Source: a virus
Virus record (IMG/VR): IMGVR_UViG_3300044489_000550
Span: 1 to 29,765 of that record
Length of the DNA: 29,765 bases
Direction: 5' to 3' (one strand)
A program made the position numbers and the translations under genes. The notes below the pieces were generated by a model. It was not told the DNA's origin, did not search any database, and worked only from the letters and a program-made list of their open reading frames with translations. This document shows, one piece after another, positions 4,620 to 14,039 of this stretch; the stretch's first letter is position 1; each line of letters opens with the position of its first letter.

Positions 4620-4976
4620 ATGCCAGCGAGCGAACGGCGATTCTGGCCGGGTTCGTTCCAGGATCATCATATCCTGGGAGAGGTGAAGTATGTCAATGTC
4701 GGCGAAGCCCGCGTGCGGGCGCTGATGCTCTATGAGCAATCAATAGGGCGCGGTGTAGAGCCGACTGAGGATGTTCTCCTGCGCGGGCGGGTGATCGGGA
4801 GCATGGATGCGATCCGCTGTACGATCTGCGGGCGCGTCCACAATTGGATCATCGGGCAGGATGCGATGGATGCGTTTATGGAAAGTCTGGGAATATTGGG
4901 TCTGGACATGCCGGCAGATCGGCGGCCTACTGATGAGCCAGAAACATCATTGAAACAGAAAGGAAAGGAACAATGA
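4620..4976 (+). CDS. Hypothetical protein with CxxC motif, 118 aa
   Basis: I use ATG 4620, which has a strong G-rich ribosome site (GGGGGAGGG, 4605-4613). A TTG two codons earlier is also possible. The protein contains R-C-T-I-C-G-R-V-H-N-W near residue 70, a CxxC with a nearby His that could bind a metal. The N-terminal part looks folded and the tail is charged. The stop overlaps the next start (ATGA at 4973-4976). No recognised family. Confidence 0.6.
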   Translation: MPASERRFWPGSFQDHHILGEVKYVNVGEARVRALMLYEQSIGRGVEPTEDVLLRGRVIGSMDAIRCTICGRVHNWIIGQDAMDAFMESLGILGLDMPADRRPTDEPETSLKQKGKEQ

Positions 4977-5644
4977 AGGCAAAAATGAAATGGCTGAACA
5001 TAGATGGCGGCAAGCTGCTCCTGGTCGTCGCGGCGCTGGTGCAAGGCGCGCAGTATGCCCAGGCGTTCCTGATGGTGCATACAGCCCTGGGGAATTATGC
5101 CCTGGCCGGCGGAATCATGGCCGGGCTGGTGGTAGTGGGCGCGGTGGCATACGTAGGTAACCGCCTTCCCAGGGTCGCCAGCAAGAGGGCGCGCTCAGGC
5201 GGTACTATCTTATTCGTCCTTGCATTGGTGCTTTCGCCGCTGGTGCTGACGCCGGTCAACTGGTACGGTATGGATGCCGGCCTGCGGGCAGCCATCGGCA
5301 GCTATGCCTGGGTGCTGGCCGGGCTGGTCGCCAGCCTGCCAGAACTGGCAATTGGCATGGTGGCGCTGGTGGACCGGTCGCTGATCAGTCTTTCTGCGGC
5401 GCAGCCTGCGGGCAGCTACGGCGCAGGCCAAATTTCTGCGGCGCAGGCTGCGAAACCTGCGGGCAGGCTGCGGGCAGCTACGTCGCAGGCTGCGAAAACC
5501 TACGAGTGCATAGTCGCAGGCTGCGGATATTCTACGGGAAGCCAATCCTCATTTGCGGCGCACATGAGCCACCATAACCGCAAGGCGCGCCGGGATGCAC
5601 TCGCAGGAGCATTGTTCGGAACGACCGGAAAGGAGAAGGTATGA
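4973..5644 (+). CDS. Multi-pass membrane protein with C-terminal C2H2 zinc finger
   Basis: The 223-residue protein has four hydrophobic segments in the N-terminal two thirds (~14-32, 43-62, 77-95, 108-138). A low-complexity Ala/Gln/Gly linker follows (~143-178), encoded by short GC-rich DNA repeats. It ends with a C2H2 finger (residues ~182-204: C-x4-C-x12-H-x3-H). ATG 4973 has AAAGGA upstream. A zinc finger tethered to a multi-pass membrane protein is unusual for a phage; membrane tethering of DNA or of the replication complex is a reasonable inference, because the next gene encodes the initiator and also has a zinc finger. ATGA overlap with that gene. Confidence 0.65.
   Translation: MKAKMKWLNIDGGKLLLVVAALVQGAQYAQAFLMVHTALGNYALAGGIMAGLVVVGAVAYVGNRLPRVASKRARSGGTILFVLALVLSPLVLTPVNWYGMDAGLRAAIGSYAWVLAGLVASLPELAIGMVALVDRSLISLSAAQPAGSYGAGQISAAQAAKPAGRLRAATSQAAKTYECIVAGCGYSTGSQSSFAAHMSHHNRKARRDALAGALFGTTGKEKV
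5390..5530 (+). repeat. Imperfect GC-rich short repeats in a protein linker
   Basis: Variants of TCTGCGGCGCAGSCTGCG and GCGGGCAGCTACGBCGCAGG recur several times here and encode the SAAQ/PAG/AAK-type linker of the membrane/zinc-finger protein. The repeats are imperfect and look like local duplication by slippage rather than a mobile element. Confidence 0.55.
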
Positions 5645-6768
5645 CCACACTGTTGCCCACGTCGGAATTGGCGATGATCCGCTCGATCAAGGGTGCGGCG
5701 CTTGTGCTGCTGGTCATGCTGCGCCTGGATGGTCTCTACCCGGGACGGGCGATCTCGGATTACGAGCTCGCTGACATTCTGGAAATAGACCGGCGCACAG
5801 TAGCCAAGCAAATGCGGTCACTTTCGGCGGCGAACCTGCTGCTGGAACAGCGATCAGGACGGTACGTGGTCACGCTGGCTGGGCGGAATACGCTGTTCTG
5901 GCCGAATCGCCAGCCAGGGAGTCTTTCCATAGAAGAAAGTGGGGTTCCGAGTGCGCAATCGCTTTTGAATGCACAAAATGTGCTTAATGATGAGGATGAG
6001 GAGGATTCAATTAATGATTCTGATATTAATTCATCCTCATCCTCAATCAAGAGCGCACAAAATGTGCAAATTCTGGATGAAACCTGGCGATTGTTTGGCG
6101 CATCGGTTTCAACGGCGGGATTATCGGCGGAAGTCCTGGACTTCTTCGAGCCAGAGTGGGCGCTGGCCTGGGTGGCCAAGGCTTACGCCGACCGCAACTC
6201 GCTCCGCAATCCGCAGGGGTTGATCTACCAGCGGCTTAAGCGGCTCGAAGCGCCATCGGCGACGATCATGGCTCAATATCCGATCAGCAGCCTGCCGGCG
6301 GAATACCTGGATGCAATCGAAAGATATGAGCAGGTTTGTCCACGATGCCGGGCAACGTTCACCTCCTTGGTAGGATATCAGCAACACCAGGAGCATTGTC
6401 TCATGACACCGCTGGAGGATGGCAAGCAGTACGATGATCAAGCTGAGATGATCGCGGACGAGACAGTGCAAAAGGAAATTCCTGGCTCTCCGTTTACCGC
6501 TGAGCAAGCGTGGAAGCACGTGCTTGAGCAGCTCGAGAAAGAAATGCCAAGTGCATCTTTTAAGACCTGGGTGGCTGATACGCAAGCGCTGCATTTTGAG
6601 GCAGACTGCATCCAGGTGGGTGTGCGCAACGCTTACGCGCGGGATTGGCTGGAGAGCCGGCTGCAAAGCACGATTGTGAAGTTGCTTCAAGGTCTAACGA
6701 ATCAAGGAAGTATGACCCTTGTATTCATCATTGGCGGTGGCGTTTCCGCAGAAACGGAGGGAGAATGA
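5641..6768 (+). CDS. Phage replication initiator: wHTH, C2H2 finger, DnaA N-terminal-like domain
   Basis: Domain order in the 375 residues: an N-terminal winged helix (~15-80, 'ISDYELADILEIDRRTVAKQMRSL' with an 'RSGRYVVTLAG' wing); an acidic and Ser-rich linker (~95-140); a central helical region (~147-205); a zinc-finger-like C233-x2-C236...H249...H252/C253; and a C-terminal DnaA domain-I-like module (~283-363), with spaced Trp/Phe and 'VGVRNAYARDWLESRL' resembling the DnaA 'VPNxFxxDWLE' motif. DnaA domain I recruits helicase, so the protein probably binds the phage origin and loads the host replicative helicase. AAAGGAG precedes ATG 5641. Palindromic repeats in the linker DNA suggest the origin is inside this gene, as in lambda O. 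Confidence 0.75.
   Translation: MTTLLPTSELAMIRSIKGAALVLLVMLRLDGLYPGRAISDYELADILEIDRRTVAKQMRSLSAANLLLEQRSGRYVVTLAGRNTLFWPNRQPGSLSIEESGVPSAQSLLNAQNVLNDEDEEDSINDSDINSSSSSIKSAQNVQILDETWRLFGASVSTAGLSAEVLDFFEPEWALAWVAKAYADRNSLRNPQGLIYQRLKRLEAPSATIMAQYPISSLPAEYLDAIERYEQVCPRCRATFTSLVGYQQHQEHCLMTPLEDGKQYDDQAEMIADETVQKEIPGSPFTAEQAWKHVLEQLEKEMPSASFKTWVADTQALHFEADCIQVGVRNAYARDWLESRLQSTIVKLLQGLTNQGSMTLVFIIGGGVSAETEGE
5971..6067. other. Candidate replication origin inside the initiator gene
   Basis: Two identical 13-bp palindromes GCACAAAATGTGC (5971-5983 and 6055-6067) flank a symmetrical block. The block is TGAGGATGAGGA at 5991-6002, an A+T-rich centre (6006-6033), then its inverse complement TCCTCATCCTCA at 6034-6045. 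Repeats around an A+T-rich stretch in the linker of the initiator gene mirror lambda ori within O. The repeats are seen; the origin role is inference. Confidence 0.5.
6742..6755. repeat. GTTTC-N4-GAAAC palindrome, site 2
   Basis: GTTTCCGCAGAAAC lies at the 3' end of the initiator gene and is identical to site 1, including both flanks. It encodes V-S-A-E-T at residues 368-372 of 375. Confidence 0.75.
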
Positions 6769-7382: not shown

Positions 7383-7394
7383 AGTGTATACTTG
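7383..7394. promoter_or_regulatory. Possible operator beside promoter 1
   Basis: AAGT-GTAT-ACTT is a small inverted repeat directly at the -35 region of the 7392-7421 promoter, preceded by another ACACT...AGTGT inverted pair (7371-7387). It may be a repressor or activator site; there is no partner to compare it with. Confidence 0.25.
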
Positions 7395-7421
7395 TGAAAG
7401 GAGATGCGCAGGCAATATAAT
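7392..7421 (+). promoter_or_regulatory. Promoter for RNA element copy 1 / holin operon
   Basis: A perfect TATAAT at 7416-7421 has TTGTGA at 7392-7397 (18-bp spacing, 4 of 6 bases of the -35 consensus). A transcript would start near 7428, about 17 nt before the structured RNA. Confidence 0.55.
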
Positions 7422-7444: not shown

Positions 7445-7488
7445 TGCAGTCCTGGTGTAGACCGGGACAATTGATCGGACATGATGCA
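7445..7488 (+). ncRNA. Duplicated structured RNA element, copy 1 (upstream of holin)
   Basis: The first 24 nt are identical to copy 2 at 13647. They are TGCA followed by a 7-bp hairpin, GTCCTGG, loop TGTAGA, CCGGGAC, which includes one G-U pair. After a variable 6-nt linker come TCGGA, two variable bases and TGATGCA. The flanking TGCA at each end can pair to close the element. It sits promoter-proximal and is followed at once by an intrinsic terminator. I do not recognise it as a known riboswitch or sRNA class. A cis antiterminator, an attenuating leader or a short independent RNA are all possible. Confidence 0.65.
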
Positions 7489-7520
7489 CCCGACGCTATC
7501 TTGGCGTCGGGGTTTTTGTT
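7489..7520 (+). terminator. Intrinsic terminator after RNA element copy 1
   Basis: Stem CCCGACGC (7489-7496) pairs with GCGTCGGG (7504-7511), with a 7-nt loop, followed within two bases by TTTTT. It lies between the RNA element and the holin ribosome site, so holin expression must read through it or start elsewhere. Confidence 0.8.
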
Positions 7521-7539
7521 AACTCGAAAGGAGTCTGTT

Positions 7540-7905
7540 GTGAATATCAACCCTGATGTGCTCAATATTGCTGTCACCATCTTGCTGGGTTTTGCCTCAC
7601 TGCTGGGGATCAGCAAGCTGATCGCTGCGCTGATCAACGTGCTGAAGCTGGTGGGCGTGGTCAAAGATGGCACGTCATCGCGCTGGTCCGCTGCGCTCAA
7701 CCTAGTGGCCTTCATTGCGTTGGTGGCCGTGGGCGTGTTTAAGCCCGGACTGACAACTGAATTGCTCGATGGCTATGCCGGCCAGATCGCTGCGGTGCTG
7801 CTCTTTATCCTCGGCTTTCTGACGCAGATTGTCGGGTCAAAGTCTGGACATGATGCGCTCAGTGATGCCGGCGTGCCGCTCATCGGCAAGTCATTCAGCA
7901 AGTAA
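7540..7905 (+). CDS. Holin-like membrane protein
   Basis: I choose the GTG at 7540, which has AAAGGAG at 7527-7533 (6-nt spacing); the frame runs 5' through the RNA element and terminator, which is not plausible coding. The 121-residue protein has three hydrophobic segments (~residues 6-27, 47-66, 76-97) and a short polar tail, a class I holin-like topology. Holins permeabilise the membrane at lysis. It precedes an HNH gene and the terminase block. Assignment is by topology and context, so it could be another small phage membrane protein. Confidence 0.55.
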   Translation: MNINPDVLNIAVTILLGFASLLGISKLIAALINVLKLVGVVKDGTSSRWSAALNLVAFIALVAVGVFKPGLTTELLDGYAGQIAAVLLFILGFLTQIVGSKSGHDALSDAGVPLIGKSFSK

Positions 7906-8264
7906 TGCCACAGCGCCCCCCACATCCATGTGCAGTGCATGGATGTCCCAACCTGGTCTATGAGGGCAGCCGGTGCCGATTGCATCGGCTGCCGTCTCCG
8001 CCTCGGGATACACGTCCCAGCGCAGGACAACGCGGCTATGGATGGAGTTGGAAGCGGGATGTGCGCGATCCATTCCTACATGCGCATCCATATTGCACCA
8101 ATCCATATGGTCTGCACGACTACCGCGTTCTGGCTGTGGTGGTGGATCATATCCTTCCAAGGCGGCGAGGAGGAACAGATGAATGGTCTAATTTGCAAGG
8201 ATTGTGTCGCAGGTGTGATAACACAAAACACTATCGCGATGGCTCGAAAATCTCGAAGGGGTAG
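7905..8264 (+). CDS. HNH endonuclease (terminase-associated)
   Basis: The 119-residue protein has an N-terminal Cys pair region and the HNH core near the C-terminus: V-V-D-H-I-L-P-R-R-R-G-G (~78-89), N95-L, then G-L-C-R-R-C-D-N-T-K-H, giving D-H...N...H-type catalytic residues with a CxxC zinc pair. HNH nucleases next to small terminase genes are required for packaging-site cleavage in several HK97-like phages. The start overlaps the holin stop (TAATG). A longer frame overlapping in another phase is a shadow. Confidence 0.85.
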   Translation: MPQRPPHPCAVHGCPNLVYEGSRCRLHRLPSPPRDTRPSAGQRGYGWSWKRDVRDPFLHAHPYCTNPYGLHDYRVLAVVVDHILPRRRGGTDEWSNLQGLCRRCDNTKHYRDGSKISKG

Positions 8265-8366
8265 GGGGGTAAAAATGTTTTTACGCGGGCTTCCGAACCG
8301 GCCGGGCAACCGTCCTCGCGCGTCCGCGAAATTCAGCAGGGGGGGGTAGATGATAAGTAGGCTATC
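8265..8366 (+). other. Intergenic region before small terminase 1; possible cos/packaging site
   Basis: The 102-bp gap holds G-runs (8264-8269 and 8339-8346), an inverted repeat GTAAAAATGTTTTTAC (8269-8284) and GC-rich short palindromes. In HNH-carrying HK97-like phages the cohesive-end site often lies between the HNH and terS genes. I cannot identify a nicking site, so this is a positional suggestion. Confidence 0.25.
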
Positions 8367-8846
8367 ATGCGTGGAAGGCGTCCCAAGCCGACCAGCCTGA
8401 AACGGCTGGAAGGTAATCCAGGAAAGCGCGCGCTAAATGACTCGGAACCGCGACCGAGAATCGTTCTGCCGCGTCCTCCTGCGCATTTGAGCGATGAGGA
8501 AAAGGAGAAGTGGAAATCTATCGTCCGTGAGTTGCATCCGCTCGGTCTAGTAACTGTCCTTGATCTTGATCAGCTTTCGATTTACTGCGTTCTGTGGATG
8601 CGCTGGGTGAAGGCGGAACGGATGGTTCGCGAAAAAGGTGAGATCATAAAAACCGCGGCAGGGAATATCATCCAAAACCCTTATTTATCCATTGCCAATC
8701 GCACGCTCGATCAACTGAATAAACTCGGTGCAGAGTTTGGAATGACACCTTCGGCTCGCTCGCGCGTCAAGGCGGAGCCGCCTGATGCGGAACACGAGCT
8801 CGAGCAACTTCTGTTTGGGCAGAGAGTGACAATTGCTAATGACTGA
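8367..8846 (+). CDS. Terminase small subunit 1, P27 family
   Basis: The 159-residue protein begins R-G-R-R-P-K-P-T and G-N-P-G-K-R-A-L-N, the hallmark N-terminus of P27-type small terminases. A helical middle and the conserved F-G-M-T-P-S-A-R-S-R-V tail near residue 130-140 follow. Small terminases recognise the packaging site and load the large subunit. A second full-length P27 small subunit sits at 11407. This copy is separated from the large subunit by two methylases, which is unusual. Overlaps the next start by 8 nt. Confidence 0.9.
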   Translation: MRGRRPKPTSLKRLEGNPGKRALNDSEPRPRIVLPRPPAHLSDEEKEKWKSIVRELHPLGLVTVLDLDQLSIYCVLWMRWVKAERMVREKGEIIKTAAGNIIQNPYLSIANRTLDQLNKLGAEFGMTPSARSRVKAEPPDAEHELEQLLFGQRVTIAND

Positions 8847-10185
8847 CGAACTCGAGCTCTCCTACATTGCCGAAAGCTTGCGCGGATTGGCTGTCCCGAT
8901 TGATGACCTGCACCTCGATCCGGCCAACACGCGCACCAATCATGCTCTGGATAGGATTGCCGCCTCGCTCAAGGCCTATGGCCAGCGGAAGCCCATCATT
9001 GCCAATCGTCAGCAGAACGGCAAGATCGAAGCCGGTAATGGAACTTGGCTGGCGGCTAAAAAGTTGGGATGGAATTGCATCGCCGTGGTCTATGTTGATG
9101 ACGACCCGGCGACCGCGGCTGCCTATGGCATTGCCGACAACCGCCTGAGCGAACTGAGTACTTGGGATCTCGACGCTCTCGGCGCGCTCATCCCGACGGT
9201 GGACGACCTGTTTACAGGCTTTACCCCTGGCGAAATCCGCGATCTTCTCGGAGAACGTGGAGATGGCCTGATGGTGGACCCAGGGCCACAAGACGAGCAA
9301 CCGGACAAGCTGCCAGAATTGCGCGGAAAGTGGAAAACGGAACTGGGACAAACCTGGCAGCTCGGACGGCATACGCTTTTCTGTGCGGATACCACCGCGC
9401 TGGATGTCGAAGGTTTGGGTTGGCAAGGAATTGCCGTTCTGACCATCACCTCCCCGCCTTATTGGGTGGGCAAGGATTATGAGCGCGAGAAATCCGAAGC
9501 CGAGATCGACCAATTCGTCGAGCGCGCCGCGGCTGTGATGGCGCACGTCACGCGCGTGGACGAGTCCCGCATCGTCATCAACACCGGCACCGGCTTCACC
9601 ACAGCCTTCGAGAAGCGCAAGAAGCGACAAGTGTTATTGCTGATTGACAAGTGGATGAACGCCCTCTACCCGCTCGGCTGGAACCTGCGCCACATCCGCC
9701 ATTGGCTGAAGGAAGGACAACTCGCCGCCGTTGCTCCCAAGACCGACTTACTCGATCAGCATTGTGAATTCATCGAAACTTTTGAAGCTGATGACGGCCA
9801 ACCGATAGACTTTACCGACACGCTCAATGAGCGCGATGTGCAGCTACTCGAAACCTACTATAACCGGGCGGGCAAGAACCGCGGCCAGGAACGCACCAAA
9901 CAGAAATGGGCGCTGCGCTCCTACTGGGACGATGTAAAAGGTACGGCCAGCGCCAACAGCCACGTGGCTGCCTTCCCGCTGGAAATTCCGGCGCGGCATA
10001 TTCTGCTTTATACCCAGCCCGATGAGATCGTGTTCGACCCATTCTGCGGATCCGGAACTACGCTGATTGCCTGCGAGATCCTGAATCGCGTCTGCTGTGC
10101 CGTGGAGATTGATCCAGGCTATGTGGCAGCATCCCTTGAGCGATGGCATGTGATGACCGGCGAGACCCCCAACAATTATGACTGA
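8839..10185 (+). CDS. ParB-domain DNA methyltransferase, TSPPY type
   Basis: The start is ATG 8839. Residues ~15-140 form a ParB/Srx-like domain (R-I-A-A-S-L-K-A-Y-G-Q-R-K-P-I at 39-53, E-A-G-N-G-T at 64-69, D-D-D-P-A-T-A-A-A-Y-G-I-A-D-N-R). Residues ~165-445 form an amino-methyltransferase with T-S-P-P-Y at 204-208 and F-D-P-F-C-G-S-G-T-T at 399-408, order beta-type. The TSPPY form is common in N4-cytosine enzymes, but N6-adenine cannot be excluded. Such fusions are frequent in phages and are usually orphan methylases for self-protection. Residues ~300-350 are an insertion. Its N-terminal domain is closely similar to that of the next gene. Confidence 0.88.
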   Translation: MTDELELSYIAESLRGLAVPIDDLHLDPANTRTNHALDRIAASLKAYGQRKPIIANRQQNGKIEAGNGTWLAAKKLGWNCIAVVYVDDDPATAAAYGIADNRLSELSTWDLDALGALIPTVDDLFTGFTPGEIRDLLGERGDGLMVDPGPQDEQPDKLPELRGKWKTELGQTWQLGRHTLFCADTTALDVEGLGWQGIAVLTITSPPYWVGKDYEREKSEAEIDQFVERAAAVMAHVTRVDESRIVINTGTGFTTAFEKRKKRQVLLLIDKWMNALYPLGWNLRHIRHWLKEGQLAAVAPKTDLLDQHCEFIETFEADDGQPIDFTDTLNERDVQLLETYYNRAGKNRGQERTKQKWALRSYWDDVKGTASANSHVAAFPLEIPARHILLYTQPDEIVFDPFCGSGTTLIACEILNRVCCAVEIDPGYVAASLERWHVMTGETPNNYD

Positions 10186-11410
10186 TCTATTTTGCATCTC
10201 AGAATCATTACGTCCCTTGGCAGTGCTGCTCAGCGATCTGCATGAAGACCCTGCCAATGCGCGCGTGGGCCATGACGTGGATCGTATCGCCGCATCGCTC
10301 AGAGCCTATGGCCAACGTAAGCCGATTGTGGCAAATCGGCTGCAGGGCGGGAAGATCGAGGCGGGGAATGGCACTTACCGGGCCGCCAAGCAATTGGGTT
10401 GGAGTCATATTGCCGTTGTCTTTGTGGATGACGATCCAGCCACGGCTGCCGCCTTTGGCGTGGCCGACAACCGAGTGGGCGAACTCAGCCGCTGGGATGC
10501 TGATGCTTTACGAGAGATTGCCAGCACCACCGGCGACCTCTTTACAGGCTTTGAAGCGGCGGAGTTGGAGGAGTTGGTCGGGGCTGCCGTTTCCACAGAA
10601 ACACCCCCGGTTACAGAGGATTTCGGCACCGAGTTAGATCGAGCCGAAGAATTGTTGATCAAATGGCAGGTAAAGCCGGGACAGGTTTGGCGCGCCGGTC
10701 TGCACCGGCTGATGTGTGGCGATTCCACCCAACGGGCGAACGTCGACCGGCTCATGGATGGGAATCTGGCGCAGATGATTTGGAGCGATCCGCCCTGGAA
10801 TGTCGCCTATGGGGAAGGCGATCATCCCGCTTATGGTCACCGCACCATGAATAACGATAACCTGGGCGAAAAGTTTACCGCCTTTGTGGACCTATTTGTG
10901 ACACAGTTCCGCAGCTTCTGCCAACCGGGCGCGCCCATTTATCTGGTGATGGGTGGCCAGGAATGGCCGGTGATCGACGCAGCACTGCGTAGGATTGGGT
11001 TTCACTGGTCGAGTACCATCATCTGGGTTAAGGATAGTCTGGTCTTGTCTCGAAAGGATTACCATACCCAGTATGAACCGATGTGGTATGGCTGGGATAA
11101 TCGCGGCCCTCGCTTAGTGGGGCTGGCGGACCGGAAGCAGTCTGATGTTTGGATGATCAACCGGCCAAAAAGGAGCGAAGAGCATCCGACCATGAAGCCG
11201 TTGGAATTGGTGGAGCGTTCGATTGCCAATTCCAGCCAGCCTGGTGCCATCGTGATGGATTTGTTCGCCGGGTCCGGGACGACTCTACTTGCTTGCGAGC
11301 AACTGGGCCGCGTTTGCCGCACGATGGATAACGACCCCAAATATCTCGCAGTCTGCCTTGAACGTTGGAGCCTTGCGGCCGGTCAAATGCCCAAGTTGGA
11401 GGAGCCATGA
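10178..11410 (+). CDS. ParB-domain DNA methyltransferase, DPPW type
   Basis: The 410-residue protein has the same kind of ParB/Srx-like N-terminal domain (R-I-A-A-S-L-R-A-Y-G-Q-R-K-P-I at 36-50, E-A-G-N-G-T at 61-66). Its catalytic domain differs: D-P-P-W at 204-207, H-P-T-M-K-P at 336-341, D-L-F-A-G-S-G-T-T at 361-369. The DPPW motif indicates N6-adenine methylation. The start overlaps the previous gene by 8 nt. A linker (~135-150) contains palindrome site 3. Together the two genes should give the phage two different methylation specificities. Confidence 0.9.
   Translation: MTDLFCISESLRPLAVLLSDLHEDPANARVGHDVDRIAASLRAYGQRKPIVANRLQGGKIEAGNGTYRAAKQLGWSHIAVVFVDDDPATAAAFGVADNRVGELSRWDADALREIASTTGDLFTGFEAAELEELVGAAVSTETPPVTEDFGTELDRAEELLIKWQVKPGQVWRAGLHRLMCGDSTQRANVDRLMDGNLAQMIWSDPPWNVAYGEGDHPAYGHRTMNNDNLGEKFTAFVDLFVTQFRSFCQPGAPIYLVMGGQEWPVIDAALRRIGFHWSSTIIWVKDSLVLSRKDYHTQYEPMWYGWDNRGPRLVGLADRKQSDVWMINRPKRSEEHPTMKPLELVERSIANSSQPGAIVMDLFAGSGTTLLACEQLGRVCRTMDNDPKYLAVCLERWSLAAGQMPKLEEP
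10589..10602. repeat. GTTTC-N4-GAAAC palindrome, site 3
   Basis: GTTTCCACAGAAAC lies in the linker-coding part of the second methylase and encodes V-S-T-E-T at residues 138-142. The integrase site at 28961 is its exact reverse complement. Confidence 0.75.
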
Positions 11411-11886
11411 CACGCGGGAGAAAACCCAAGCCAACTGCACTCAAGGAGTTGGCAGGCAACCCAGGTAAGCGTGCGTTGAATCATAAGGAGCCGAAACCTG
11501 TAGCAGGCATCCCAGCTTGTCCCAACCATTTGAGGGGCGCAGAACGCACGGAATGGAAGCGTCTCATTGCGGAATTGGATGAAATGAAATTGCTCTCCAA
11601 AGTAGATCGTGCTGAGTTGGCGCTTTGCTGCTCGGCCTGGGGCATGTACGTGAAGGCCTGCAATAAAATCAAAAAGCAAGGCGAAGTTATCATCAGTGAT
11701 CAGGGCGGCATGTATCAAAACCCGTGGATCGCTATTCGAAACAAAAGCATGGAGCAAGTACATCGGTTCTACACGGAATTCGGGCTCACGCCATCGAGCC
11801 GGGCGCGCGTGAAGGTGGACGCGCCGAGCGAGGAGGAAGAATTGGAGAAAATGCTCTTCGGCGGCAACGTGAGCGTTGGTAAATAA
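11407..11886 (+). CDS. Terminase small subunit 2, P27 family
   Basis: I use ATG 11407, which overlaps the methylase stop as ATGA and has GGAGG just upstream; the upstream extension is a shadow. The 159-residue protein has R-G-R-K-P-K-P-T, G-N-P-G-K-R-A-L-N and E-F-G-L-T-P-S-S-R-A-R-V, the P27 signature, and is the same length as the copy at 8367 but clearly diverged (roughly 40% identical by eye). Being directly upstream of the large subunit, this is the likely standard packaging partner. Confidence 0.9.
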   Translation: MTRGRKPKPTALKELAGNPGKRALNHKEPKPVAGIPACPNHLRGAERTEWKRLIAELDEMKLLSKVDRAELALCCSAWGMYVKACNKIKKQGEVIISDQGGMYQNPWIAIRNKSMEQVHRFYTEFGLTPSSRARVKVDAPSEEEELEKMLFGGNVSVGK

Positions 11887-11887
11887 A

Positions 11888-13588
11888 ATGACTGATTATA
11901 AACAGAACGAGAATCTGCATCCCGCAGAACAATATGCGAAGGATGTGACAGAAGGGAAAATCATCGCTTGCAAATGGGTGAAGTTAGCATGTGAGCGGTA
12001 TTTTCACGATTTGCAGCATGGTTCTAAGCGGGGACTCTATTTTGACCGCGAGGCCGCTGAGCGCAAGATCAAGATGACCAGCTTGCTGAAGCATAGCAAG
12101 GGTCAATGGGCAGGGCAATACTTTCATCCCGAGCCGTGGCAGCAATTTATCTATTGGAATGTTTTCGGCTGGAAGCGCGCTGATGGAACGCGGCGATATC
12201 GGACGTTGTATGAGGAGGTGGCGCGCAAAAACGGAAAAAGTACCGATGCAGCCGCGACAGGAATCTACCTCGCTTTTTTTGATGGCGAAGCGGGCGCGGA
12301 GGTCTACAGCGCCGCGACCAAGCGTGATCAGGCGTGTATCGTCCATTCCGAAGCGGTCCGCATGGTCAAGAAAAATAGCACGCTGAAAAAATATATCCGA
12401 ACGTACAAAGACAATTTGCTCATGGAATCTACGGCCAGCAAATATGAACCGCTGGGCGCCGACGCGGACAGCACCGATGGCTTGAATGTGCATGGTGTGA
12501 TCGCCGATGAGCTCCACGCATGGAAAAGTCGTGAATTGTGGGATGTACTTGAGACAGGAACAGGCTCGCGCCGTCAACCGTTGATGGTGGCGATTACTAC
12601 AGCAGGTATTGACCGGCAATCGGTTTGCTATGAGAAACACGAGTACACCTGCAAGATCCTCGAAGGCTTCCAGGATGGTTCATTTGTAGACGATACTTGG
12701 TTCGGAATTATTTACACTATTGACGAAAACGATGATTGGCGAGATGAACGGATATGGCCAAAGGCGAATCCCAACTTGGGCGTAGCGAAATTCTGGGATG
12801 ATATGCGCATGAAGGCGAAACGCGCCGATAAAATGCCCGCCGCACTCAATAACTTCCGCCGCCGCGAACTCAACGTCTGGGTGCATGGTGAGACCAAATG
12901 GATGGATATGGAGGCATGGCGCGCGTGCGCTGGCGGCGCTTCAGCCAAAGAGATTGCCATTCGATGTAAGAAACATATTGGCTTCGGCGGCCTTGATCTA
13001 TCTTCAACGTCCGATACTACTGCATTCTGCATGGTCTTCCCTGCAAAGGATGGCTATTATGATGTGATAGCGCACTTCTGGCTGCCCGAAGATGTTATTC
13101 GGCCTCGCACGCAGGAGGGCACGCATTATGAGGAATGGGTCCGTGAGGGTTGGATCACTGCCACGGACGGGAACGTGATAGACTATGATTTCATATTTGA
13201 CGAAATCGAACATGATGCGGACATTTATGATATTCCACAAATTGCTTTCGATCGCTGGGGAGCGGCACGCGTCGTTCAGGTGCTCGAGAAAAAGGGCTTG
13301 AAAATGCTACAATTTGGACAAGGCTATGCTTCGATGTCACCGCCGATGAAGGAATTGGAGCGGCTTATTATGGCAGGCAAAATCCGTCACGGCAATAATC
13401 CCGTCCTGATCTGGATGATGGATAACGTGGTGGCGCGCATGGACCCCGCAGGCAACATCAAGCCCGACAAAGAAAAATCGAAGGAAAAGATAGATGGCGT
13501 GGTGGCATTGATCATGGCGCTTGATCTGGCGCTGCGCAATCCGGTAAATGATTTGTCGGGTATTCTAGATAAGGATTGGGGCATGTGA
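11888..13588 (+). CDS. terL: Terminase large subunit
   Basis: The 566-residue protein has an ATPase with Walker-A-like V-A-R-K-N-G-K-S-T (111-119), Walker B V-I-A-D-E-L (204-209) and coupling segment (A-I-T-T-A-G). Its RNase-H-like nuclease has D370 (GLDLSSTSD), D455 (AFDRWG) and D536 (KIDGVVAL). This is the Terminase_1/HK97-like family that drives DNA packaging into the prohead. ATG 11888 follows the small subunit stop directly; an earlier TTG is inside that gene. Length is typical. Confidence 0.95.
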   Translation: MTDYKQNENLHPAEQYAKDVTEGKIIACKWVKLACERYFHDLQHGSKRGLYFDREAAERKIKMTSLLKHSKGQWAGQYFHPEPWQQFIYWNVFGWKRADGTRRYRTLYEEVARKNGKSTDAAATGIYLAFFDGEAGAEVYSAATKRDQACIVHSEAVRMVKKNSTLKKYIRTYKDNLLMESTASKYEPLGADADSTDGLNVHGVIADELHAWKSRELWDVLETGTGSRRQPLMVAITTAGIDRQSVCYEKHEYTCKILEGFQDGSFVDDTWFGIIYTIDENDDWRDERIWPKANPNLGVAKFWDDMRMKAKRADKMPAALNNFRRRELNVWVHGETKWMDMEAWRACAGGASAKEIAIRCKKHIGFGGLDLSSTSDTTAFCMVFPAKDGYYDVIAHFWLPEDVIRPRTQEGTHYEEWVREGWITATDGNVIDYDFIFDEIEHDADIYDIPQIAFDRWGAARVVQVLEKKGLKMLQFGQGYASMSPPMKELERLIMAGKIRHGNNPVLIWMMDNVVARMDPAGNIKPDKEKSKEKIDGVVALIMALDLALRNPVNDLSGILDKDWGM

Positions 13589-13601
13589 GGCGAAAGAAGA
13601 A

Positions 13602-13631
13602 TGACAAAACGTACAAAAATTGTGCTATAAT
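13602..13631 (+). promoter_or_regulatory. Promoter for RNA element copy 2 / lysis-portal operon
   Basis: An extended -10, TGCTATAAT (13623-13631), lies after an ATGACAA stretch at 13601-13607 that can serve as -35 (18-19 bp spacing). Transcription would start near 13638, about 9 nt before RNA copy 2. It lies in the gap after terL. Confidence 0.65.
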
Positions 13632-13646
13632 GAAAGTAATAATCTA

Positions 13647-13689
13647 TGCAGTCCTGGTGTAGACCGGGACGCCAGTCGGAAGTGATGCA
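13647..13689 (+). ncRNA. Duplicated structured RNA element, copy 2 (upstream of GH25 fragment)
   Basis: The first 24 nt (13647-13670) match copy 1 exactly, including the 7-bp hairpin with a TGTAGA loop. A 5-nt linker differs in length and sequence, and TCGGA and TGATGCA are then conserved with two variable bases between. The terminator directly downstream is in the same position as at copy 1 but has a different stem sequence. Conserved unpaired parts with a changed terminator stem point to selection on RNA structure rather than to a recent simple duplication. Confidence 0.65.
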
Positions 13690-13720
13690 ACCGGCCTCTA
13701 TTCGAGGCCGGTTTTTTGTT
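13689..13720 (+). terminator. Intrinsic terminator after RNA element copy 2
   Basis: Stem AACCGGCCTC (13689-13698) pairs with GAGGCCGGTT (13704-13713), with a 5-nt loop and a run of six T (13712-13717). It lies directly between the RNA element and the GH25 fragment, so the portal and capsid operon must be read through it if this promoter drives them. Confidence 0.85.
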
Positions 13721-13733
13721 TTCCAGGAGTGGA

Positions 13734-14039
13734 ATGGTCCTGCTCGGATTGGATGTAAGCCATTGGGATAAGGGTACGAAGGTTCCGCTCATTGATTGGG
13801 CGCAGGCCTCGTCTCTTTTCAAATTTGCCTTCATGAAATGCTCAGAGGGTGACTATTACCGCGACGATCTGTTCAAGGCGCAATGGCGCGCCGCCGAGGG
13901 TCACGTGATGCGGGGCGCTTACCACTTCTTCCGGGGGGCATGTAACGCGATCAAGCAAGCCCAGTTGATGATCGAGATGGTGGGCGGCGACTGGGGCGAG
14001 TTGCCGCCGGTGCAGAACGCCGAATGCGTGGAGGAGTAG
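13734..14039 (+). CDS. Truncated GH25 lysozyme (N-terminal half)
   Basis: The 101-residue protein matches the first half of a GH25 muramidase: G-L-D-V-S-H-W (5-11), F-A-F-M-K-C-S-E-G (~32-40), G-A-Y-H-F-F-R (~61-67), then L-P-P-V. Family members are about 190 residues. Here the normal catalytic D-x-E after LPPV reads N-A-E, and the protein stops six codons later. The remaining half is not visible downstream. It is therefore probably catalytically weak or dead, either a remnant or a short peptidoglycan-binding derivative. ATG 13734 has GGAG at 13726-13729. Confidence 0.7.
   Translation: MVLLGLDVSHWDKGTKVPLIDWAQASSLFKFAFMKCSEGDYYRDDLFKAQWRAAEGHVMRGAYHFFRGACNAIKQAQLMIEMVGGDWGELPPVQNAECVEE

Follow-up and report, generated by a model that had tools for sequence, protein, structure and literature searches.

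A pseudoknot RNA element as a probable transcription attenuator before both late operons of Chloroflexota phages

Introduction

Why should one short RNA stand twice in a viral genome, each time between a promoter and an intrinsic terminator? The question is raised by the IMG/VR viral record IMGVR_UViG_3300044489_000550, the whole 29,765 bases of which are here called the window. This phage genome, with ParB-like, replication, terminase, portal, capsid, tape-measure and integrase genes, carries two copies of an RNA element of about 50 nt, copy A at 7445-7494 and copy B at 13647-13695, each placed between a sigma-70-type promoter and an intrinsic terminator. All results given here come from computation on sequences. 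They suggest, with a probability that we put at roughly 0.72, that the element is a transcription attenuator in the leaders of both late operons of a group of Chloroflexota phages and prophages. This RNA probably governs whether late-gene expression begins. Chloroflexota is an abundant and mostly uncultured phylum, and we know of no described late-gene control in its phages.

Two copies of one leader RNA

The original prediction was that the two copies share their first 24 nt exactly, followed by TCGGA-N2-TGATGCA after a linker. Both features are present in both copies: the 24-nt stretch TGCAGTCCTGGTGTAGACCGGGAC lies at 7445-7468 and 13647-13670 (no match expected in shuffled sequence), with TCGGA-N2-TGATGCA downstream of it. 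The promoter and terminator reported around each copy were found as well. The TATAAT boxes end at 7421 (A) and 13631 (B), placing the estimated transcription starts about 17 and 9 nt upstream of the element, and the terminator hairpins, 7489-7511 (A) and 13689-13713 (B), follow directly behind it. The element is thus a leader RNA between a promoter and a first gene, with an intrinsic terminator. Its parts, named P1, P2 and P3, are as follows.

7392..7421, plus strand: putative promoter of copy A (TTGTGA, 18 nt, TATAAT), a consensus match only
7445..7448, plus strand: P1 5' strand TGCA, copy A; pairs with 7485-7488, T-A, T-G and C-G alternating among copies
7449..7468, plus strand: P2 hairpin, copy A; 7 of 8 pairs changed on both sides over 36 copies
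7475..7478, plus strand: P3 5' strand UCGG, copy A; complement of 7490-7493, from covariation, and predicted in the truncated nascent RNA
7485..7488, plus strand: P1 3' strand TGCA, copy A; from pairing and covariation
7490..7493, plus strand: P3 3' strand CCGA, in the terminator 5' arm, copy A; from covariation
7489..7518, plus strand: predicted intrinsic terminator hairpin and T run, copy A
13601..13631, plus strand: putative promoter of copy B (ATGACA, 19 nt, TGc-TATAAT), a consensus match only
13647..13650, plus strand: P1 5' strand TGCA, copy B; pairs with 13686-13689
13651..13670, plus strand: P2 hairpin, copy B; from covariation
13675..13679, plus strand: P3 5' strand GUCGG, copy B; pairs with CCGGC at 13691-13695
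13686..13689, plus strand: P1 3' strand TGCA, copy B; from covariation
13691..13695, plus strand: P3 3' strand CCGGC, in the terminator 5' arm, copy B; from covariation
13689..13719, plus strand: predicted intrinsic terminator hairpin and T run, copy B

Covariation supports an RNA structure

Comparison of 36 distinct copies (22 in an earlier set) yields a common architecture: P1 pairs NGCA with UGCR, P2 is a hairpin of 7-8 bp, and P3 joins a bulge to the terminator arm. The copies are related, so that counts of pairs and of cells overstate their independence. Among the 22 copies, 98.1% of the P1 and P2 cells were paired and four pairs had changed on both sides, a result reached by 0 of 500 shuffles; RNAalifold returned the same P1 and P2 pairs unprompted. 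With 36 copies and P3 included, 12 pairs had changed on both sides (39 cells; 0 of 500 shuffles), and controls with slid pairings scored far lower. In the prophage copies P2 has been replaced wholesale, as in CCCTTGG/CCGAGGG, CTTTTGG/CCGAAAG and CTCCTGG/CCGGGAG. These compensatory changes strongly support selection on the structure, as the original prediction had proposed.

The hairpin itself was first described as TGCA followed by 7 bp and a TGTAGA loop. The hairpin stands, but the window sequence also allows a drawing with 8 bp and a GUAG loop, and the TGCA pairs with the later TGCA to form P1. Divergent copies have other P2 loops (UUUAU, CUUGU, UUCAU, CUUUGU, GAAGA and AAUUUGU among them), so UGUAGA is a lineage-specific feature and is ruled out as a universal recognition loop. 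A DNA operator in place of an RNA is ruled out by the asymmetric T-G in the dyad, by the covariation of the bulge with the terminator and by the fixed orientation towards the terminator.

A pseudoknot shares bases with the terminator

P3 links the element to its terminator. P2 and the 3' strand of P1 are separated by the conserved bulge NUCGG, which pairs with CCGAN of the terminator 5' arm; this pairing crosses P1 and therefore makes a pseudoknot. MAFFT misplaces the bulge in some divergent copies, and P3 was therefore counted with fixed, independently set anchors as well as in the plain alignment. With the independent anchors, 171 of 180 cells were paired, and 0 of 50,000 shuffles scored as high. 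When only the ten unique combinations were kept, 247 of 50,000 shuffles reached the observed pairing; by this test the predicted pairing still holds despite the kinship of the copies. The compensatory combinations include GUCGG/CCGAC, AUCGG/CCGAU, GACGG/CCGUC and GAUGG/CCAUC, besides GUCGG/CCGGC with a wobble; GAUGG/CCAUC occurs in locus L012 and again in L131, which lies in a record found through the protein described below and not through the RNA. (L, G and C numbers are our labels for loci, records and contigs; win1 is copy A of the window.) Minimum-energy folds of the RNA cut at the end of P3' contain P2 and a P3 hairpin in nearly all copies.

The terminators begin at the P1 3' strand or within 5 nt of it, and the bases of P3, and in most copies those of P1, are also claimed by the terminator. 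P3 is an alternative pairing that excludes the terminator and is kept by compensatory change. Because P3 covaries with the terminator arm, the pseudoknot, as an antiterminator, and the terminator would be mutually exclusive; the competition for bases gives the anatomy of a transcription attenuator whose default is to stop. The terminator stems were originally said to differ in sequence and to keep their place. They do differ, and their tie through P3 to the upstream bulge had been missed. An attenuator leader, first offered as an alternative, fits best through this exclusion.

The element in viral records and prophages

A covariance-model search for homologues with covarying stems, suggested at the outset, found them in related viral contigs and in Chloroflexota prophages. 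The element recurs in about two dozen related viral contigs and in prophages of four Chloroflexota genomes. A 20-nt core pattern matched 19 stretches in IMG/VR, relaxed patterns added a few, and the covariance model R2 reached divergent copies with P2 loops UUUAU, CUUUGU, GAAGA and UUCAU. Every real copy keeps the order promoter, AT-rich stretch, NGCA, hairpin, short linker, NUCGGA, UGCR, hairpin or terminator, gene. Whole-record scans with R2 gave, in most of the longer records, exactly two copies on one strand, 3-8 kb apart.

The host assignment starts from record G005, a provirus with flanking cellular genes, one of whose flanking proteins shows 67-76% identity to proteins of one Chloroflexota clade (the phylum being that of a Thermomicrobiales metagenome-assembled genome). 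The covariance-model search of the family of the best genome gave prophage copies in G600 (2), G751, G589 and G765; G751 has two copies on one contig and a tandem pair on another. No element was found in 400 genomes drawn evenly from the phylum, nor with the strict pattern in 301 genomes of one order. The relaxed pattern gave mostly chance matches in coding DNA of genome contigs, L055 being the only real one, and a match at L108 in G603 was judged to be chance. On these sequence relationships we assign the element to a group of Chloroflexota phages and prophages.

L055 (JAGXRB010000420.1) lies on a contig of a Bacteroidetes metagenome-assembled genome and is the same phage as provirus G005; the contig is probably misplaced or misbinned. 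The tandem copies L118 and L116 (G751:C67:81124-81266) lie 90 nt apart, the first terminator being degenerate and lacking a T run and the second full. Another hairpin also recurs, GTGGCGG...CTTGCCCCCCTCAAGCC...GCCAC or similar, frequently placed between promoter and element: upstream of copy B in L004, L010, L011, L013 and L014, and also in L020, L023/L094 and L113. Copy-A leaders further contain a ribosome-site-like GAAAGGAGG near the -10 box with no conserved leader open reading frame (ORF), in L009, L088, L008, L107, L114 and at 7392-7405 of the window.

Late operons and an orphan protein at the end of the early region

Copy A opens a block in which a holin-like gene is succeeded by genes for HNH, the small terminase subunit, a methyltransferase and the large terminase subunit. 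Copy B stands after the last of these, ahead of small genes of lysis or membrane type and then of the portal, protease, capsid and tail genes. The two copies thereby flank the terminase module on one strand in most of the longer records. By gene content, both blocks are identified as late operons. They were first described as lysis-type gene clusters, which is right for their start, both operons opening with small membrane or lysis-like genes, but they continue to terminase (A) or to portal, capsid and tail (B).

The element is linked to a small protein, here called X:

4620..4976, plus strand: protein X, an orphan of 118 aa with a CxxC motif; candidate for a late regulator acting in trans, with homologues in records that include the early region

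An X homologue is encoded in each of the 17 records that include the early region; in about ten, the gene ends 15-60 nt ahead of copy A. Scanning with X alone brought in two new records, both of which carry the element; all X sequences together were too divergent to align for a scan of the collection. The conserved residues are H17, G20, C67, C70 and W76 (window numbering). X matched no Pfam, PHROG or NCBIfam family; neither X nor the other scanned proteins of the window matched an antiterminator family, and X resembled no Q or N family in these scans, although a distant likeness in fold is conceivable. Some profile hits of X to PDB structures with BIR domains, at E 0.005 or worse, were taken as chance. 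X thus occupies what is, by analogy, the position of lambda Q at the end of the early region, and is a candidate for a trans-acting switch that would act on the element RNA.

A proposed mechanism

The data support a conserved leader RNA, covariation in P1, P2 and P3, exclusion of the terminator by sequence, copies before two late operons and linkage to X. In the mechanism that we propose, polymerase would start at the sigma-70-type promoter and P2 would fold first. The bulge NUCGG and CCGAN would next form P3, and NGCA and UGCR would form P1, giving a pseudoknot that holds the terminator 5' arm. If not stabilised, the pseudoknot would be displaced by the longer and more stable terminator hairpin, and transcription would stop after about 80-130 nt; if stabilised in late infection, it would allow read-through into the holin/terminase and portal/capsid operons. 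The candidate stabiliser is protein X, encoded last in the early region. We infer from the sequences that the terminator works, that read-through is regulated, that the switch runs in this direction and that X is the effector.

The more specific proposal is a two-part switch, in which an orphan CxxC protein made last in the early phase would recognise a nascent-RNA pseudoknot and block the terminator built in before both late operons. We advance it tentatively, at somewhat less than even odds. If true, these phages would have an RNA-directed equivalent of lambda Q control that shares no kinship with Q, N, put or RAT.

Several observations weigh against attenuation by an X-stabilised pseudoknot. 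At -16 to -35 kcal/mol, the completed terminator greatly exceeds P3 in stability, so that an effector has to be assumed. P3 has just 4 bp in win1, L022a, L118 and L005, while L116 and L022b form 2-3 of 5 pairs in the fixed register and need a shifted one; three copies (L003 3614, L016/L094 and L091) have a downstream hairpin lacking a good T run. X lies 1.5-6 kb from copy A in some phages, the window included, and its predicted model is of low confidence (pLDDT 50).

Alternative explanations

The strongest competitor, although we consider it unlikely, is a nut- or Q-like site for processive antitermination: P2 and the bulge would be the place where X or some other phage protein is loaded to convert polymerase, which would meet the adjacent terminator simply as the first of those it passes. 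X in the Q position and the lambda-like order of regulator, promoter, terminator and holin would suit this, as would one P2 position that stays U-G in 30 of 36 copies while the other pairs change. In 25 of 38 copies P1 is preceded by an AT-rich box resembling ACARYYGAATA, where shuffles gave about 3 and control windows 2; the box may serve for recognition or pausing. A third of the copies lack this box, however, X resembles none of the known Q or N families, and processive antitermination by itself leaves the covariation of the bulge with the adjacent terminator arm unexplained.

We think it rather improbable that the element is a pseudoknot riboswitch of the ON type through which the phage senses host metabolism. 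For the crcB motif an architecture of this kind, with a pseudoknot that overlaps a terminator, has been proposed (PMC2864571), and the tandem pair L118/L116 would also be in keeping with it. However, there is no Rfam match, the stretch from P3 to P1' varies in sequence as well as in length (5-9 nt), unlike a tight ligand pocket, and the element was found solely before phage late operons.

The compact unit of promoter, structure of about 50 nt and terminator could instead be a gene for an abundant trans-acting small RNA. That genomes usually have two copies, each before a late operon with a start codon closely behind, and that P3 and the terminator exclude each other, makes this very improbable. 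Slightly less credible still is an RNA that, in the manner of HK022 put, makes polymerase terminator-resistant alone: the element is promoter-proximal and present in two operons of one phage, but it has another architecture and a built-in competition with its own terminator, and it heads late, not early, operons. Least credible of all is ribosome-mediated attenuation by a leader peptide ending at a TAG in the P2 loop, to which a win1 frame ATG...GTG TAG starting just behind GGAG and AAAGGAGG in several copy-A leaders point, but no such stop occurs in the loops UUUAU, CUUGU, UUCAU, CUUUGU, GAAGA and AAUUUGU, a ribosome site is missing from copy-B leaders, the start is not conserved, and reading the leaders (copy B and other-loop copies) found no conserved short ORF with a ribosome site, so that we rejected it as a general explanation.

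Further genes of the window

7540..7905, plus strand: holin-like hydrophobic membrane protein of 121 aa, first gene of operon A; homologues head operon A in related phages
13734..14039, plus strand: GH25 N-terminal fragment of 101 aa, first gene of operon B (PF01183, 1.6e-12, profile 2-95 of 180)

The 121-aa holin-like protein has no Pfam or PHROG match. The GH25 lysozyme gene of the window is cut to its N-terminal half, and the first gene of operon B is altogether different in other phages. Two adjacent ParB-like plus N6/N4 methyltransferase genes (8839-11410) lie between two small-terminase-like genes (8367-8846 and 11407-11886). The product of 5641-6768 resembles a replication initiator, having DnaA_N at its C-terminus (PF11638, 2.8e-11) and also an HTH-like region.

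Comparison with known systems

Attenuation by a pseudoknot that captures a terminator arm, the reading we prefer, has partial likenesses among described systems. The original prediction that no described class has this sequence is borne out: no Rfam covariance model matched above its gathering score in the window or in 13 further loci, and a weak scan of copy A gave only chance-level matches.

The RAT of BglG/LicT is a single bulged hairpin that acts as an antiterminator. There, as here, the antiterminator overlaps the terminator 5' arm, and stabilisation by a protein is presumed; the element differs in combining a P2 hairpin with a P1/P3 pseudoknot. CAT_RBD, the domain of BglG/LicT regulators, had no Pfam match among the scanned early and late proteins of the window, a scan that covers part of the proteins of the records. 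In the fluoride (crcB) riboswitches a pseudoknot likewise excludes a terminator, but there is no sequence or covariance-model match, and the phage late-operon context and the variable core set the element apart. With RAT and with pseudoknot riboswitches the element would share a general mode, with no kinship by any test made.

In lambda Q (PR'-tR') and in AlpA of Pseudomonas, as here, a late promoter has a terminator just behind it, holin or lysis and head genes follow, and a small regulator gene lies directly upstream. Q and AlpA require a DNA site and a -10-like pause (PMC9371919). The GAATA-type box before P1 in many copies has only a putative role in pausing; the conserved part here, unlike theirs, is an RNA pseudoknot pairing with the terminator, and X is no recognisable Q.

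HK022 put, originally named as the closest analogy, proved a poor one. Put RNAs are of about 70 nt, with two stem-loops that modify polymerase without a protein, and lie in early operons (PMC9378689). The putL/putR pair resembles the element in lying near a promoter and in having two copies per phage. The element has one hairpin and a terminator-capturing pseudoknot within about 50 nt, where put has two stem-loops and no adjoining, overlapping terminator. Because put is defined by two stem-loops, early operons and independence of protein, we do not regard the element as a put RNA. In conAn of pLS20-type plasmids, a small protein and an RNA element head a long operon of a mobile element (PMC8955417). 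The pairing of small protein and RNA at the operon head is alike, but the conAn2 RNA is processive; this comparison is by description only.

A defined RNA (P1, P2, P3 and terminator) with a protein candidate makes a concrete, testable switch, and with it the short list of RNA-based means by which phages control termination would gain a pseudoknot attenuator. The covariance model can also be used to find and pair late operons in fragmentary viral contigs. Set against the systems above, we rate the element as a new RNA family whose control would be of a known kind, attenuation.

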